Below, piece after piece: positions 17,041-40,600 of a DNA stretch of 64,000 bases; position 1 is the first letter of the stretch; the number at the start of each line of letters is the position of its first letter. Source of the stretch: Scatophagus argus (taxonomy: Eukaryota; Chordata; Actinopteri; Scatophagidae); the NCBI RefSeq assembly GCF_020382885.2, contig NC_058508.1:9523917-9587916 (forward strand). Reading direction: 5' to 3'. Made by a program: the position numbers and the translations under genes. Under the pieces are notes generated by a model. That model searched no databases. It saw only the letters and a program-made list of their open reading frames with translations, and had not been told where the DNA came from.

Positions 17041-27946
<10,906 letters not shown>

Positions 27947-29093: not shown

Positions 29094-31895
29094 TCAACCC
29101 CAGACGCAAAGTGTGGGGCAGAGAAATTGGGATTTAGCTGCTGGAGACTTGATCACCAGATCCTTGACGATCTCCACCGTACCAAACAAGGGAAACAGCT
29201 TCTCAGTGAAGCTCTCATTGTAGGTGTAAATGTGACAGCGCTTGTCTACATCATAGAAGGACAGCTGGCCACAGTCGTAGTCGAGGTAGATGCCCACCTT
29301 GCGGGGAATGAAGCCCGGGGACAGGGCAGTGAAGGGCACTGTCAGTGCCTTCAGCTCGGTGCCCCTCTCCAGTCGCAGGGTCAGATATCCCGTATCTGTG
29401 TTCAGGGACTTGAAGCCCTTCCTCAAGGCTGACTCTTTGGCCACACCCAGCCGCCAGTCACGCTCGCCCACCTCCACCTCCCAGTAGCGGCGGCCGGAGT
29501 TAAAGCCCTCCATCCCCACAGCACACCACCAGCCGTCGAAGCGCTGGTGGTAGTTGGGGACATCCTTCCTCTCAAAGCCACATCGCATCTTCTTCTCGTC
29601 AGCAGAGATGAGCAGATCAGGGTTCGCTGTGTCCAAATCCAGGGTCACCTCCACTAAAGAGAGGGTTAAATAAACCAGACAGGTGTGGTAAAAAATATAC
29701 TAATTAATTACAAATGTAAAAATAAAAAAAAATAAATGCAGTACCTGCAGCATCTGAGATCCAATCCCACACTGCAAAAAAAACATATAGGAGATTATGT
29801 GATAATGAGAATGTTGTACCAAAAGCTGATGCAACATATGTTATCTAAATGGTCTTCTGCAGGGCAGCACGGTAATAGCAAGAGGGTTCCAGGTTCGCAT
29901 CCCAGTCTGGGCCCTTCTATGTGGAGTTTGCATGTTCTCCCTGTGCCTGCGTTGGTTTTCTGTTGGTACTCCGGCTTCCTCCCACAATACCAAAGACATG
30001 CACATTAGGTTAATTGGCTCCTCTACATTGCCCCTAGGTGTGAGTGTGAGAGTGTGTGGTTGTCTGTCTTTGTGTGTCGGCCCTGCGATTGACTGGCGAC
30101 CAGTCCAGGGTGTACCCCGCCTCTCGCCCATAGTCAGCTGGGATAGGATCCAGCCCCCCGCGACCCTGATGGATAAGTGGTATAGAAAATGGATGGATGG
30201 ATGGCCTTCTGCAAGCGAACATCCATTTAAACAATAATGGGCTACATATGACATAACATATGTTTTGTTTTGTTTTTTTATTTTGCAGGTAACTCATTTG
30301 GTTTTCAGTGTGTAAGCAGATATACAGTATATCACTCACCTGGCTGAGGAATGTAGGATATGGCACCTGGAAAAAGACAGTAACTCATAAGGAATTATAT
30401 TTATATTTATATTTATACCAAAATCCAGCTTGATTCAGTACTAATTTACAAACCACTCTTCTGAGTCCTCTGCTTCCACATGAGCCACTGCTGTGGTAGG
30501 GTGTCCTGCAAGGACACATCAAACAGGTTTGCACTACAGCTACATAATAAACTGATGCACTGCAGATAATACACAAGGAGTTAAACATACTTTATAAACT
30601 TGGACTCCTCTACCTTATCTGGGCGCTGCACCATTAAAGTCCACATAACCAGCTCCATAGCGGTCAGCAGGTTGGATGTGCGACCCCAGCGCCAGGCGGA
30701 CTGGAGGTCCTCCAGAACCTTTGCTACAGGTTCCCCGGGCCACACACTTTGCTACAGGATGATCACAGTAAATAAAACATGTCTACTGAGTACATTTTTT
30801 TCATAATTTTATTTGAATGTTTCCCACCTCAGGCTGAGCTCTCAGGTCCTTGATCCAGTTGAGGACCACAGTTTTGGCCTGCTGGAGATCTTGCTCATTA
30901 ATCAGTTTTGGCTGTTTGCCCTCATCCATCTCGGGCCAGCCATCTGTCTGCATGGGCCTCTTCTGCATGCAGACACATACGTGTGTTTAGTGAATAAATC
31001 TCTACATCTTAAGTATCATCATTTTCTGTACGTATACTCTTTTCTGGAAATGGATGATTTTCTCAGATTAGCACCTTGCTCTCCAACATGGAAGCCCACT
31101 GCAGGATAAAAGCCCTGCAAAGAGAAGTGGGCCAAACGTCATCCTGGTTCCAGATGTGCTCCAGGACTGCTGACCTCTGCAAAACAGAGGAGTTAGGTTT
31201 GGTGATTGGTAGACAAAGAGGTAAAAACAAGGCCTTGTAATGCCCTTGAAAAAGATGATTTGAAACTGGTCAAATCATCGGGCAGTGACTCTGATTGGTT
31301 AACAGTTTCTGGTTTGATGAGTGAGTTGTTACCTGGCACACTCGGCTGAGATCTTGGGCCAGCTCCACAACAAACAACTGATCCTCGTCCAGAGGCTCCC
31401 TCTTGTCCTTCTTCGTTCTCTTGTGTGTTTCCTGCAAGGAAATTCAAAAAGATTTTCTGTGGAAAACTATTTAAAAAGAATTCTCATTAAAAAAGGCATT
31501 TGGAGGACATTAGTGCTGCTTTACAAGTGCTTTAGAGAGAAATAAGGTCAAACTAGAAAGGAGGTGGTCACTCAGCCTGATCAAAATGCGCATCGTGGCT
31601 CTGTCCCTGTCAGCAGAAAATGAACCCCCCCCCCCCCCCCCCCCAAGACTCTCTCTCAGTTCATCTCCCCAACAACAGTAGATCTCTCTTGTTAAATTAA
31701 ACAAGGAAAGGAGAAATGAGTGCAGTCACATGGTACTAAAAACATTGCCATGTCAACTGTCAGTAAGTATGAAAGGTGACCCAAAAAAGGCAGGTTTTCA
31801 CATTAAACACACAATGTTGCACCAAAACATAATACCTTTATCTTGGCCGTTAAGGTTTTGGCCGGCTCCACCATGAAGTGAAAACACTGCATCAT
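29094..31895 (-). CDS. Uncharacterised PRY-SPRY (B30.2) domain protein without RING or B-box
   Basis: Nine coding exons on the minus strand: 31836-31895, 31333-31431, 31075-31176, 30828-30962, 30614-30751, 30454-30505, 30340-30366, 29745-29771 and 29094-29653; 1200 nt, 399 aa. The start is MMQCFHFMVEPAKT: an in-frame TAA precedes it across the upstream junction, so the exon ending at 33313 is 5' UTR. Residues 1-195 are helical and Trp-rich (HIWNQDDVWPTSLCRAFILQ, VVLNWIKDLRAQPE, LQSAWRWGRTSNLLTAMELV), with no RING or B-box cysteines. Residues about 214-390 are a clear PRY-SPRY domain: LDLDTANPDLLIS, RRYWEVEVGERDWRLGVAKE, GIYLDYDCGQLSFYDV and LFPLFG. SPRY domains bind partner proteins in TRIM and butyrophilin families. 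I cannot assign a named orthologue or function. The sixth exon's donor is weak; two in-frame choices differ by one codon. Confidence 0.82.
29862..30207 (+). mobile_element. tRNA-derived SINE with ATGG tail
   Basis: Recognisable teleost SINE words in order: GAGGGTTCCAGGTTCGCATC (B-box), GTGGAGTTTGCATGTTCTCC, GGCTTCCTCCCACAATACCA, AAAGACATGCACATTAGGTT, GCGACCAGTCCAGGGTGTAC, CCCGCCTCTCGCCCATAGTC and a terminal ATGGATGGATGG. At the 5' end GCAGCACGGT is joined directly to AATAGCAAGAGGG, so the A-box segment normally between them seems deleted. It lies in an intron of the PRY-SPRY gene, antisense. Confidence 0.85.
30396..30418. repeat. TTTATA tandem repeat
   Basis: Short tandem repeat of the hexamer TTTATA, three to four copies, in the intron next to a 27-nt exon of the PRY-SPRY gene. 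Confidence 0.8.
31625..31644. repeat. Poly-C tract of 20 bases
   Basis: Uninterrupted run of C on the plus strand (poly-G in the PRY-SPRY gene transcript), inside the intron between its first two coding exons. Confidence 0.9.
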
Positions 31896-31918
31896 CTTGG
31901 CTGGTGTGTAACAGAACC

Positions 31919-33312: not shown

Positions 33313-33560
33313 CTTTCTGCTCAGACGTTAGATTAAAAAAAATTATTCTTCTCTTGCGTTAAAACTAAGCAGCCAATCTGTGCTGAAAGTGTTTGATCCG
33401 ACTGCTGCAGTGTCTGACCTTGTTTACATACCAGACTGGGAGTCGGCTGGTCGGGCAGGTTCGGCTTTTTCCGTCAGTGACGAGACAAGATTCTCCGGTA
33501 GACACGGTGCGTAGCCATGATTGTAAGGTCATAATGAAGACGTCGATAGTGACGCATCAT
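33313..33560 (-). promoter_or_regulatory. Probable untranslated first exon and promoter of the PRY-SPRY gene
   Basis: The sequence just above a good splice donor contains an in-frame TAA and no ATG in frame, and is CpG-richer further upstream (33460-33550). It is therefore read as 5' UTR exon plus promoter. The transcription start is not resolved. Confidence 0.4.
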
Positions 33561-34081
33561 TATGACCTGCTCTCATACTTGAACTGATGAAGATATTTTG
33601 AATTTGAGCCTGATACGCCGGCTTTTCACAGTAGATTGCTGGTTTAATGATCTTTGACTTGATATGGGAAATGTAATGTAAAAAAAAAATAATAGTTAGG
33701 GTTATATACTTGGTTATGTTATTGAAACGGTCCTATTTTCCACATCATAAAGTCAAATACATAAAACCTCAGAAGTGTTCAGATTTTGACGAATAAGATA
33801 AAAAAAGAAACACAAGACATCTTCTAATCAGTGTAAAAGTGATTTCTTTCTTAGATAATGATTCTACACAATGATGATCCTACACAAATAGGAGGCAATA
33901 AACAAAATAAAAATAGACAATTGGTGAAAAACAGCTGTAGAAGGTTGAAGATTTAAGATAAAAGAACAGTAAATGAAATAGAAAAAGGATTGACAATCAA
34001 TATAGGAATGATACAGTTTAAAACCAATAAGCTAAAAGGGGCAGCAAAAAGACAATAAAAAGACAGACAACATCACATAAA

Positions 34082-34600
34082 AGCCAGTCTATAAATGTGG
34101 GTTTTGAAAAGTGATTTAAAACAAGTCATTGACCTTGTAAGCCTTATTTCCTCAGACAGGTTGTTCCAAACCCAAGCGGCTCTGACAGCAAAAGCCCGGT
34201 CACCTTTAGTCTTTAACCTCGATTTTGGAACGACCAGAAGGGCTCCACTGGAGGATCTCAGGCCTCGGGTTGGCTCGTATGGGTGCTTTAAAAGTGATCA
34301 ATAAAATCTTAAGATTAATTCTAAAGTGGACTGACAGCCAGTGGAGGGAGGCTAGGATAGGCTGATGTGATGCTGTCTGTTAAAACTCTTAGTGAGAAGT
34401 CCAGCTGCTGCGTTCAGGACTACTTGCAGGCGTGAGAGGGACTTGTGGAAGATGCTGGACAGGAGAGGATCACAGTAGTCTAACCTGGAGAAAATGAAGG
34501 TATGGATTACCTTTTCGAGATCAGACTGTGGGAGGAGTGTTTTGATTCTGTAGATCGTAGCTAAAGAGCTGACAGACAAAGATCATAAGACCTAGAAAGA
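34082..34600 (-). pseudogene. Degenerate LINE reverse transcriptase C-terminal fragment
   Basis: On the minus strand, 34579-34352 reads SDLEKVIHTFIFSRLDYCD and SLSRLQVVLNAAAGLL, the classic region after the catalytic core of non-LTR retrotransposon reverse transcriptases. The homology continues in shifted frames through ASLHWLSVHFRI and, between 34265 and 34082, SRLKTKGDRAFAVRAAWVWN to a C-terminal end. A deletion and at least one frameshift near 34290-34345 break it. It is a 5'-truncated, dead copy in the gap between the PRY-SPRY gene and the membrane protein gene. Confidence 0.8.
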
Positions 34601-35723: not shown

Positions 35724-37637
35724 TCACACAGGTAGAACAGCGCTGTCGGGGTCAGAGCTGACCGGATGAGGTGTGTCAGGTCCTGAACTGGTGTAGATGC
35801 CCTGAGGAGGGGAGACATCCAGACTAGATGAGAGGATGTTGTATGGCAGCTCCATCGACTGGCGGATACTCTCCTCATATGTTGGAGGAGGCTGGAGGAA
35901 AAGCGAGAAAGAGTTTGAAAATACAAATACCTCTCAGTATAATGCAGCCCAGTATAACACCTCCTTTAACTAGGATGATAGCATGTATTTACACATTGCA
36001 CACATTTATTTTTATTACCTTTAAAAAAGACAGATGATATACCAGGGATTCTGCACTGGATTGTATTCAATTGTACAGGTGTGCCAAATAAAGTGGACAC
36101 AGAGGACAAATAACAAAAGCAAAGCATCAGGATGAAAGGTGTTATTTCATTCTGTTGGCAACAGGACACGTTGCAGAGCAGAACTTTGAGGCTGCACTAA
36201 TCAATACTGCTATATCAAAAGGAATCAGGTTTTATTGCCAAGGAGGTTTTCACACTTGAGGAATTTGCCTTGGTGTTTTGTGCATAGGAATAAACATGGT
36301 TCGTAAAGAAAAAGAGAAATAAAAGTAAGTATTGCAAGTACACACTAGCAGCACAAACAGAAAATAGACAACTGATAAAAGTTGTAATGATAAAAAAAAA
36401 AGTGCAATATGTTTTTAAAAGATGTAGTCTTGTGAGGGAATGTGTAAAGTATTCAACAGGGAAAATGCAGATGTTTGCACTATAAAAATATGCCAAATGT
36501 GCTATGTGACCAAGGATCATATTCATATTGATTTTGCCTTTGATGCTTGTATAAAAAATAAAACAAACACTCGTGAGAGTGTGTGTCGCTCATAGAGATG
36601 AAATCCACAGAGAGTCATCACCTGACTGACTGCCTCTGACTCGTTGCAGGCCACAGTTTTACTGTTTGGTTCACTTTCTCATAAGCCTCATTTCCAGCCA
36701 AAGCGCCCATCAACACAATGCAGCTTTTAGCAGCAAAAGAGACAAATATTTACCTCAGGACTTGGTGGAGAGCAAAAACATAGCAGAAAGAAAGTGGATA
36801 TTCTGCTCATGTTTGCTCAGTGGATACAAAGATGACTGGAGGTGAATGTTAATGTCCCTTTGTGTCTGCTGGATGTGTACGTAAGCATAAGTTTATCAGG
36901 TTATAATAAAAATATAACTAATAAAATAACGAATAACTAATACAGGTTCATTTCATGAATAACAGATTCAAATTCTGCTCTCGTTGTAACCTTAGAGGAG
37001 ATTTCATGTGTTCTTCTATCTTTTCAGTTTTTTTGGAGCTTTTCCTCTCTTGCTACCTTTCTAATATAAGTTTGTGATTCTGTTTAAGACTATTATTGTG
37101 GTTTATGCATGCAAGTGAGAAACACTACTGAATATAATAACCACAAAATTCTTCAGGAAAATTAAAATATCAGAAATAGGCAGACAGAAAATATTATTTC
37201 CCAGGATGAATGTGTTGGTTGGAAAACATCTTTAGGTCTGATATCTATGCCTGAAAATAAATGGAACATGTCTGTATTTACATTACTGATTCATCAGTCT
37301 CCACAACAGACACCTGAACATATTTTTTCCAATGGATTATCTTTCTGATCACATCAGGCAGATTCATGCTGACTGAGTCTTCTTATCTTTTAATTGCTTG
37401 GGGACCCTCAGGCGACAAGAGCAACCCTACAACATCACCCTTTGTCTGACACACACACACACACATGCACACACAACAGGCCACCAAGTTTTACAACTGT
37501 CCTGCCTCAGGCCATAGGACAGACATGGGTACCTAAATTAATCATCTGAACTCCTCACACAGTCTAAGGAGGGGTGGGGGGCTGACTCTACTAGTGATGG
37601 GTTGACTGGAAAGAACTGTGTGTGAATGTCCTTTCTT

Positions 37638-37668
<31 letters not shown>

Positions 37669-40600
37669 CAGGCAGTCATGCTAGGGACTGTTTAATTAAG
37701 GAAAAAAGGGAGGTCAACGAAGAAGAAAAAAAATACGAAAGACAGGAGCACAAAGCTGCATTCCCAGCCCTGTTTGCACTCAGGATGCAGGCTTTAATTA
37801 TGTTTGATGTGCCTTTTTCTCATTACCTTGTTTGCTCGAGCGTTATGGGAGTCAAAAGCAAAAGATCGACGCGGTAAAACCTTGAAACGCAGCCGCCAGC
37901 ACAATTCAGCAGTGAGCATTAGATAAGCTGATAGCGCATCCTGTTTACTGCACCCTGAATGCAGTCTAATCTTTGAACAAGCTCTTGTTACAATATTGTA
38001 TGACAGTGTGGTCATAATGGAGAGCCAGCTTCCTATTATCTCCATTCATTGTGAAACTACAGTTGATGGGGGGGCTCCATAATAACACGAGTTTATACGA
38101 GCTTTAGCATCCTTTGAAACTGTAATAGGAGTAAAATATCCTCTCTACTCCCAGGCTTAACAACAGCACCTGAAACACTTTGTTGTCAAAGTATTCGTGA
38201 CTGTATCAAGTGCTGAGACACAGTCCTAATCCTTAACTTAGCCTACCTCAGTCACAATGGGTCCATTGAGGCCGAAGCGATCTGCGATCATCATGTGGAT
38301 CTGCCTCTGGCGGTCCTTCTTTCGGACACTCTCGTAGGAGGGGAGCCTCGGCAGGGGGGTCTCCAGTGTTGGCAGGCTGTAGCTGGAGGGCACACCGATG
38401 TAGAACAGCTGACCTGCCTGCTGAAACACACGCACAGGCCCAAACACATAGTGACAGATATGTGGGACTGAAAAACAGAGGTTTTGATGTGCTGATGATT
38501 TGTGAAGAGTGATTCAAAATATACCCCATCACTGAACTGTCAGACAGTAAGCTGCAGTCACTGAAACATTCACTTCAGAGCCCGATCGACCCACTGATGT
38601 GTGTACTGTGCACTGTGTGTTCAAAGAGGGAGCTGAGAGGATGTCTATTTACTGCAGCAGCACACACAGGGAGGAAGCTGATGCTTTGCGTGGCTGATAG
38701 CAGATTTTGCCAGTGCAATAATAGGCTCTCTCACCTGAGCGTTGCTGCCATCCATGATCTGAGTCTGCTCGAGACAAGGAGATCCCACCAGAGTCTGCCT
38801 GCTGCTGTAGTACTGAGGAGGAGCATCCTGTAAAACAGGTAACAATGGCTGTCACAAGAGTGTCTCAGAGAGCAGAGCCTTAGTTATTCTTTAAACCATT
38901 TCTGTTAATCAGTTTATATTTTAATCAAATGCTCTACATGGTGGTTCGTTGTCGCTCTGCTGCAATTAGTCAGAAATCCACTCATTTCAGCCCAATTGAC
39001 CAATTTTCATGCCTTGTTTATTCACTGTAGACACTGGCTGGTTTGGCAATACCATAAATTATCTTATCAATAAGACAAACACCCTCCGATTTCCGTGCCT
39101 CCTCCCTGTCCCACCCCCTGTAAAACAAGACCTGTCAGAGTCTCACTGTATGAGGTGCAGGAATCCTGAAAAAAGGCTGCCAGGAAAACAAGGTAATTGC
39201 CTTGGGTCTAAATGAGTCCCCTTTGTGTGCAGGACAATGTGGTGTCCTACTGTGTCATCAGGGTCCCTAGGCAACAAACCACACCGTGTGGTCTTTGCTC
39301 TCTCTTCCCTTTGTAACTGCAGCAGGTACCGCTTAACGAGCGCGCTCCAATACACATTATGGCCTCGTATGTCATTTGAGACGGCATTACAACAAAGTCA
39401 ATTTGTTGCCTGACTGAGATTTAAATCCAGCATGAGGATAAGAAATATCGGGACAATATTTGTCCTTATCACTAAGGAGATTTCCTCAGACTAAAAGGCA
39501 ACACAACTGGGAGTTCAGCGTGCAGCAACACTGAGTAGTATTGAAAACTCAATACACAATATTTCAGTACTACTACTTCAGTAGTATTGAAATATCAGAT
39601 TTATCATTTTCCCAGGCCAGTTAGACAATGACATCACTCACGCTAAAAGTGACGCACTCTACCGACCTTTGCCATAACCCTCACATCATTTTAGAGACAG
39701 AGAGAGACACAACACCAAAAGGTGATGTCAAAGGTCACTTTCCCTCACTGGTTAGTACTTTTAAGAACCAAAAAAAAGGTCCTCAGGAAAGAGGAAAAAA
39801 AGAAGACTTGTCCTTTTGTCTCCTGCCATTGATTCAGCCAGTGTGAAAAAGCACAACCGTGTAAAATCAGTGTTGAAGTCGGGGGAGGAACCCAGCGGCA
39901 GTGTGCCTCTTTCACGGCCGCAAACCTAAAGGAGATCCATTGTCCCTCTTGTGTCCCCAACACCCACAGTGGGGTCTGCCCACTATTCATGGTGCAAACT
40001 GAAGCAGGGAAAGGTATGTGACTATGAAGTTGAAGACATGAAATGTCCCACAGCAACACAATGAAAGAGTGTTTGTGTGCACGTTCCTCTCTGGGAATGA
40101 CTTCACTTTCCGTCTCCATGTAATGAAAAACATTTCTCAATCATATTCATCAGTTACATATTCAGGAACAATATCTGCCAACTAAATAAGTCTACAGTAA
40201 GAGTGCAGGCTCTGGCATTCACTGACACGATAGTATCATGTCTTATCAGCCGCTCTGTGAATGAATACAGCTGTAACCGCAGGTCAGTACGAACCAGTTT
40301 GTACCAGTGAAACACTGTGTTAGTTCCTTAAACGGGACAACAAATCTTCTCCAGTAAAACCACGACTGAGCAGAACTTCCTGTCCATTAGGAGGAGGGGG
40401 GTGTGAGTTGTGTCTCTGCAATCCGAAGATAACTCTCAAACTTCACCCCTGGGACTCACAGGGGTGAGAAACAAGTCAGGAAGAGGAAGCAGAGAGACTG
40501 GGCGACCAATGAAAGGTTACCTCAGTGGTGTGTTTACATTTCCTTTTCACCTCATCCTGGACCGTTGCCTTTACACACACTCAAACAGTTATCAGTTATC

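Follow-up and report, generated by a model that had tools for sequence, protein, structure and literature searches.

Gene structure

The stretch of Scatophagus argus DNA analyzed here (the window: 64 kb, contig C16:9523917-9587916, in an assembly of 570.7 Mb and 48 contigs) contains on its minus strand what looks like a real, intact protein-coding fish gene, in which a PRY-SPRY (B30.2) domain follows a tryptophan-rich N-terminal region of about 200 residues. This gene is called copy A below; a second gene of the same structure, copy B, was found on contig C21. In window coordinates, copy A consists of nine exons running from 31918 to 29094, with the coding sequence from 31895 to 29094. The original prediction had proposed just such a nine-exon, 399-residue frame, and it splices as claimed: all eight introns are of the GT...AG type and the phases are consistent, the first five junctions being in phase 0 and the last three in phase 1. 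Two 27-bp micro-exons precede a single 560-bp exon that holds the entire PRY-SPRY. The features are as follows:

33315..33480, minus strand: possible 5' untranslated exon with a donor-like AAAG/GTAAGC at its 3' end (found by eye, limits guessed)
31836..31918, minus strand: exon 2, the first coding exon, 83 bp with 20 coding codons; ATG at 31895-31893 (MMQCFHFMVEPAKTLTAKIK), placed by splice sites and frame, with a counterpart in copy B
31333..31431, minus strand: exon 3, 99 bp, 33 codons, phase 0; 55% identical to an exon of equal length in copy B
31075..31176, minus strand: exon 4, 102 bp, 34 codons, Trp-rich; 56% identical to an exon of equal length in copy B
30828..30962, minus strand: exon 5, 135 bp, 45 codons; the least conserved of all the exons
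30614..30751, minus strand: exon 6, 138 bp, 46 codons; contains the motif VWPGEPV, common to both copies
30454..30505, minus strand: exon 7, 52 bp, ending in phase 1
30340..30366, minus strand: exon 8, 27-bp micro-exon, phase 1-1
29745..29771, minus strand: exon 9, 27-bp micro-exon, phase 1-1 (VWDWISDAA)
29094..29653, minus strand: exon 10, 560 bp, complete PRY-SPRY and stop codon (Pfam PRY and SPRY; best PDB match BTN3A3)

The intron that separates the two micro-exons also carries a repeat resembling a short interspersed element (29830-30234), with up to 91% translated identity to L007:6284-6427 on C21.

A second copy

A DNA search of the same assembly with the SPRY exon gave one other match, on C21. 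Copy B (C21:3940258-3943779, minus strand) is intact and encodes 409 residues in nine exons of 64 (its start set by hand), 99, 102, 159, 141, 52, 27, 27, and 560 bp, with phases identical to those of copy A. The shared nine-exon structure and phases indicate that copy A is not a chance frame, and replicate the gene model. The two proteins are 58% identical overall, 48% in their N-terminal halves and 72% in the PRY-SPRY.

Third codon positions vary most in both halves: differences at the three positions are 0.385, 0.282, and 0.559 in the N-terminal region and 0.177, 0.146, and 0.462 in the PRY-SPRY. NG86 estimates of nonsynonymous and synonymous divergence (dN/dS) are 0.43/2.89 and 0.20/0.96, respectively; since the N-terminal dS is saturated, only the direction of that ratio counts. 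Both halves thus have a substitution pattern of constraint.

The PRY-SPRY domain

In the 399-residue protein, Pfam recognizes PRY at residues 216-264 (E 2.9e-17; 62.4 bits, cut-off 27.5) and SPRY at 268-371 (E 2.4e-19; 70 bits, cut-off 26.3), with no other family up to E 10; the original prediction had called the domain a textbook PRY-SPRY. A PDB search with the same protein gave 95 chains at E <= 0.1. Among the best 60 of these, the leading matches to the SPRY are BTN3A3 (E 7.1e-40) and BTN3A1 (E 1.4e-38), followed by TRIM58 (E 1.3e-35), TRIM7, pyrin, TRIM21, and BTN2A. The SPRY of copy A is in itself an ordinary one.

Relatives are numerous within the genome: with 150 of 244 candidates scored, there were at least 136 SPRY matches at E 1e-8 or better, including the pair, and among those scored the nearest outside the pair belongs to a TRIM with RING and B-box at L037 (C23:12509-12518.7 kb). 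This locus holds one or more TRIM genes, and several further SPRY matches lie nearby on C23. In a ten-row SPRY tree, which leaves aside L031, L032, and L034 (these appear close to L030) as well as a C21 TRIM gene described below, whose SPRY is intron-split, copies A and B group firmly (100/99) on a long branch (0.88 changes per column). The tree gives the pair no firm place among the TRIMs and BTN3A3, setting it beside TRIM SPRYs weakly (67/80). An AlphaFold model of the SPRY exon alone, made without an alignment, was uninformative (predicted local distance difference test score, pLDDT, 34.8) and was not used.

In PRY-SPRY domains, variable loops together with a concave face serve to bind partners (PMC8203840, in part), and the majority of human SPRY proteins either have ligase activity or serve as substrate adaptors (PMC13175477, in part).

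The N-terminal region

The original prediction called the N-terminal part Trp-rich and novel. The first description holds: 13 of 213 residues are Trp in copy A (10 of 223 in copy B), and nine of these (62, 68, 80, 123, 136, 152, 185, 206, and 208) are at positions common to both copies, as are the motifs VWPGEPV and NLLxAMELVM. The second can be kept in the sense of unmatched in three libraries. The suggested comparison with hidden Markov model libraries returned only PRY and SPRY from Pfam and, for the whole 399-residue protein, no family from NCBIfam; residues 1-213 alone matched no Pfam family, and their best PDB chain stood at E 0.34, whether they were searched as a single sequence or as a two-sequence profile. 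The PDB matches in question, to response regulators (E 0.34-1.4; profile 0.34-0.40), were taken as chance, as was a match of one of the two members to a Jumonji helical domain (E 0.17). Viral contigs gave 92 pattern hits and no relatives at E 1e-3, and phage records gave no match.

Within the genome, the region is nearly confined to the pair. Searches with the two N-termini gave 11 and 10 rows up to E 10 (10 and 9 candidates scored), of which 9 in each case fall on copies A and B. The three matches elsewhere, on C7, C3, and C8, are all weak and contain stops, and were taken as chance. That on C7 (E 0.0065; 41% identity over query residues 20-62, E 3.6e-7 when the 3-kb locus was searched alone) spans the border of exons 3 and 4, with one stop inside it and more to either side, and no credible SPRY was seen in the 3 kb; it could also be a decayed retrocopy. 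Those on C3 (E 0.63) and C8 (E 0.0047) include three and seven stops.

No 19-residue stretch is strongly hydrophobic (maximum mean Kyte-Doolittle hydropathy 0.99 in copy A and 1.38 in copy B), and copy A has no clear membrane span. The helical character of the N-terminal region was an impression in the original prediction; such a fold, like a cytosolic location for the protein, is putative. That a second complete copy has been kept since an old segment duplication (see below) suggests that the N-terminal part is probably a working, as yet undescribed, domain.

Gene neighborhood and origin of the pair

Genes recognized around copy A are:

downstream of copy A, same strand: RECQL5 (PDB RecQ5, E 3.1e-59)
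24232-24523, plus strand, inside RECQL5 on the opposite strand: SMIM5-family gene (Pfam PF15831, E 4.6e-11)
on the other side of copy A: xylosyltransferase (PDB XYLT1, E 1.3e-30)
neighbor of copy A: a gene that we take to be CDR2L (no PDB match)

Those around copy B, on C21, are:

SMIM5-family gene (E 1.7e-6; 28.8 bits, cut-off 29.3)
an exon presumed to be from SAP30BP (no Pfam match)
integrin beta-4 (PDB, E 8.5e-23)
RUN-like fragment (20.8 bits, cut-off 22)
UNK (E 3.9e-26)
C2-like exons presumed to be from UNC13D (E 0.0017 and 0.0081, under the cut-off)
L012 6459-9998 (C21:3984-3988 kb), minus strand: TRIM gene about 41 kb from copy B, with a RING over the cut-off, a B-box just under it, a PRY, and a split PRY-SPRY; perhaps TRIM47 or TRIM65

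CDR2L (minus), the SMIM5-family gene (plus), and the SPRY gene (minus) have identical order and orientation on C16 and C21. A search with the presumed CDR2L brought up a single further strong locus, C21:3871843-3872963, which is split into two pieces of 75 and 51% identity, with weaker likenesses at C21:14.88 Mb and C16:12.60 Mb; the alignment score between the two SMIM5-family genes was reached by only 0.15% of 2000 shuffles. UNK gave one match on each contig, at C21:3955498 and at C16:16332043; on C16 it lies 6.8 Mb away from copy A. This three-gene collinearity argues that the pair arose by segment duplication, which is well supported; the event was probably the teleost whole-genome duplication. 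Both loci echo the gene order of human 17q25.1 (RECQL5-SMIM5-SMIM6-SAP30BP-ITGB4-GALK1-H3-3B-UNK-UNC13D-WBP2-TRIM47-TRIM65).

Other features of the two regions include a scrap at 34076-34362 of the window that seems to us to resemble the end of a LINE (long interspersed element) reverse transcriptase, with a relative at L006:768-1072, and two exon-like open reading frames (ORFs) on the minus strand (35724-35933 and 38238-38513) with PPxY-like motifs (PPPTYEES, LPSYESV) and no Pfam match, perhaps belonging to the next gene upstream. A two-kb tandem repeat at L013 7212-9241 (C21) is open in several frames on both strands, and a short likeness in several frames between 85-411 of the window and L005 5052-5342 (C21) is repeat-like rather than gene-like.

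Possible functions and alternative explanations

The absence of RING, B-box, and death-fold noted in the original prediction is confirmed by Pfam for the 399-residue protein. A RING pattern, which detects the RING of the C21 TRIM, was found neither in the six frames of the window nor in locus L003 around copy B; a B-box pattern, which detected the B-box at L037 and overlooked that of the C21 TRIM, was likewise absent from both. Strictly speaking, therefore, copy A is not a TRIM. Having no RING of its own, it would most likely bind a target through the SPRY and a partner through the N-terminal region. We put at about even odds a RING-less protein, one of a pair that outlasted an ancient duplication of the segment (probably that of the whole teleost genome), in which the C-terminal PRY-SPRY would bind a protein or peptide ligand. 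The Trp-rich N-terminal part of about 200 residues would be an uncharacterized domain that holds a partner, either another copy of the protein or an effector (a ligase complex, for instance), and the whole would act as an adaptor and not as a ligase. A larger proposal is more tentative and in our view rather doubtful: that residues 1-213 form a new domain that predates the teleost genome duplication, has disappeared from mammals or gone unrecognized in them, and gives SPRY recognition a non-RING output, the pair representing an undescribed class of vertebrate SPRY adaptors. Fish orthologs are quite likely already in databases as "uncharacterized" or "TRIM-like."

Several observations weigh against the adaptor interpretation. 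In a coding-score test trained on genes of the window, the N-terminal exons of copy A score by themselves only modestly over chance: exons 2-8 exceed stop-free chance windows, each only at the 4-11% level (exons 9 and 10 are at 46 and 45%), a result superseded by the evidence of copy B. Conservation of exon 5 is poor (29%, dN 0.82), and part of the N-terminal region may thus be a loose linker. An internal repeat sought there (exons 3-4 against 5-6) was no better than shuffled sequence (of 2000 shuffles, 66% attained its best local score of 24) and was dropped. As to the duplication, when the 1050 ORFs of the window were compared with 108 kb of C21 at E 1e-4, the SPRY gene was the only shared gene found, the other matches among the 27 rows being to repeat-like stretches and, in one case, to the SPRY of the C21 TRIM; and the xylosyltransferase has no match on C21 (three rows, two on C16 and one on C2). 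Reciprocal gene loss would explain both. Finally, in both copies the reading frame has no stop between the exon-2 acceptor and the ATG, and the phase is apparently equal (the copy B acceptor placed by eye); this leaves slight room for a further coding exon upstream that would add a domain and make the 399-residue protein a fragment. This we consider very unlikely: the open stretch is short (7 codons in copy A and, counted by hand, 9 in copy B) and the copies are scarcely alike there, both begin with MM and have an A at -3 (by eye), and splicing to the donor near 33315 brings the frame to a stop without an ATG (by eye). Nor do RING or B-box patterns occur upstream of the genes, either in the 32 kb of the window that precede copy A or in the 4 kb of L003 that precede copy B.

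Descent from a TRIM gene by loss of RING and B-box, the N-terminal region being a worn coiled coil and linker, is favored by the weak placement of the pair beside TRIM SPRYs and by the TRIM neighbor of copy B, and TRIM-like genes with lost domains have been described (PMC2533329, PMC10445537; both in part). Searched against the 9.7-kb L037 locus alone, both N-termini match weakly at the same coiled-coil-like place (E 0.36 and 0.15), but these matches extend beyond the point where, judged by eye, the coiled-coil exon probably ends, and among the 11 and 10 rows of the genome-wide searches with the N-termini (10 and 9 candidates scored) no TRIM coiled coil came up to E 10. The exon pattern 99/102/135/138/52/27/27 and the Trp and VWPGEP motifs are not known from TRIMs. 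With the long branch of the pair also against it, this origin seems somewhat unlikely. A butyrophilin origin, in which the immunoglobulin (Ig) and membrane parts were lost and the juxtamembrane micro-exons and B30.2 kept in an intracellular protein, is decidedly improbable. Butyrophilin genes have micro-exons before the B30.2, much like the phase-1 27-bp exons here; BTN3A3 and BTN3A1 are the best PDB matches, and some chains align from residue 167 or 185. However, TRIM58, TRIM7, and pyrin match nearly as well, BTN3A3 lies outside the weakly supported group of the pair in the tree, and copy A has no Pfam Ig domain and no clear membrane span. It also keeps none of the eight residues of the BTN3A1 phosphoantigen pocket (W350, H351, H378, W391, K393, R412, R418, and R469; PMC4337483, in part), having instead, by a numbering placed by hand on the BTN3A3 PDB alignment, G, W, R, F, S, K, F, and G (thus H378 to R and R412 to K). 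Copy A is not a butyrophilin.

The original prediction suggested an adaptor or sensor lacking ligase activity, with a speculative role in immunity. The architecture underlying this suggestion stands, the suggestion fits it, and an adaptor role is what we infer; its immune half is weakened. B30.2 domains are used in fish immunity, and diversified TRIM genes are known (PMC2657112, in part), but the N-terminal domain occurs in only two genes in our genome searches, against the expanded SPRY families, the SPRY is 72% identical between copies with a dN well under dS, and the two copies agree at six of the eight pocket-equivalent positions. Two conserved, unexpanded copies are a mild argument against a fast-evolving innate sensor or restriction factor, which we regard as unlikely. 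The constancy of those positions, few as eight are, is more in keeping with an unchanging endogenous ligand than with an arms race. In the open-licence literature, judged by the titles and abstract openings listed, we recognized no description of this gene, of its gene order, or of RING-less fish SPRY proteins; the available portion of PMC3137616 has no mention of "recql" or "TRIM65."

Comparison with known systems

The pair would form a clean two-gene system, free of the many expanded fish SPRY genes, and if its N-terminal domain has no mammalian relative, it would represent an old vertebrate gene lost on the human line. Like class IV TRIMs (RING-B-box-coiled coil-PRY-SPRY), copy A has its PRY-SPRY in a single last exon, and the closest genomic SPRY to the pair is in such a gene; it differs in lacking the RING and B-box, and its N-terminus is unrelated by sequence search. 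The best PDB matches of its SPRY are BTN3A proteins, with whose genes it shares micro-exons ahead of the SPRY exon, but it has no Ig domain or clear membrane span and does not keep the phosphoantigen pocket. It also has no NACHT, leucine-rich repeat (LRR), or death-fold domain of the kind found in NLR-B30.2 proteins and pyrin (Pfam, up to E 10).

Other SPRY proteins have part of the tripartite motif missing: RNF135/Riplet retains the RING and BSPRY a B-box, while FSD1 and FSD2 have a fibronectin type III (FN3) domain. This group, termed "TRIM-like" in PMC10445537 (in part), is comparable to the 399-residue protein, in which Pfam finds none of these three domains. Adaptors of the SPSB and FBXO45 kind differ in the SOCS box or F-box, neither of which Pfam finds in copy A up to E 10; copy A would work as they do, its SPRY binding the target and another domain recruiting the effector. 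The SPRY domain is familiar mostly as a reading head, in ubiquitin ligases and in membrane butyrophilins, and a conserved SPRY protein with another, unmatched front part would reveal a further use of this reading head.
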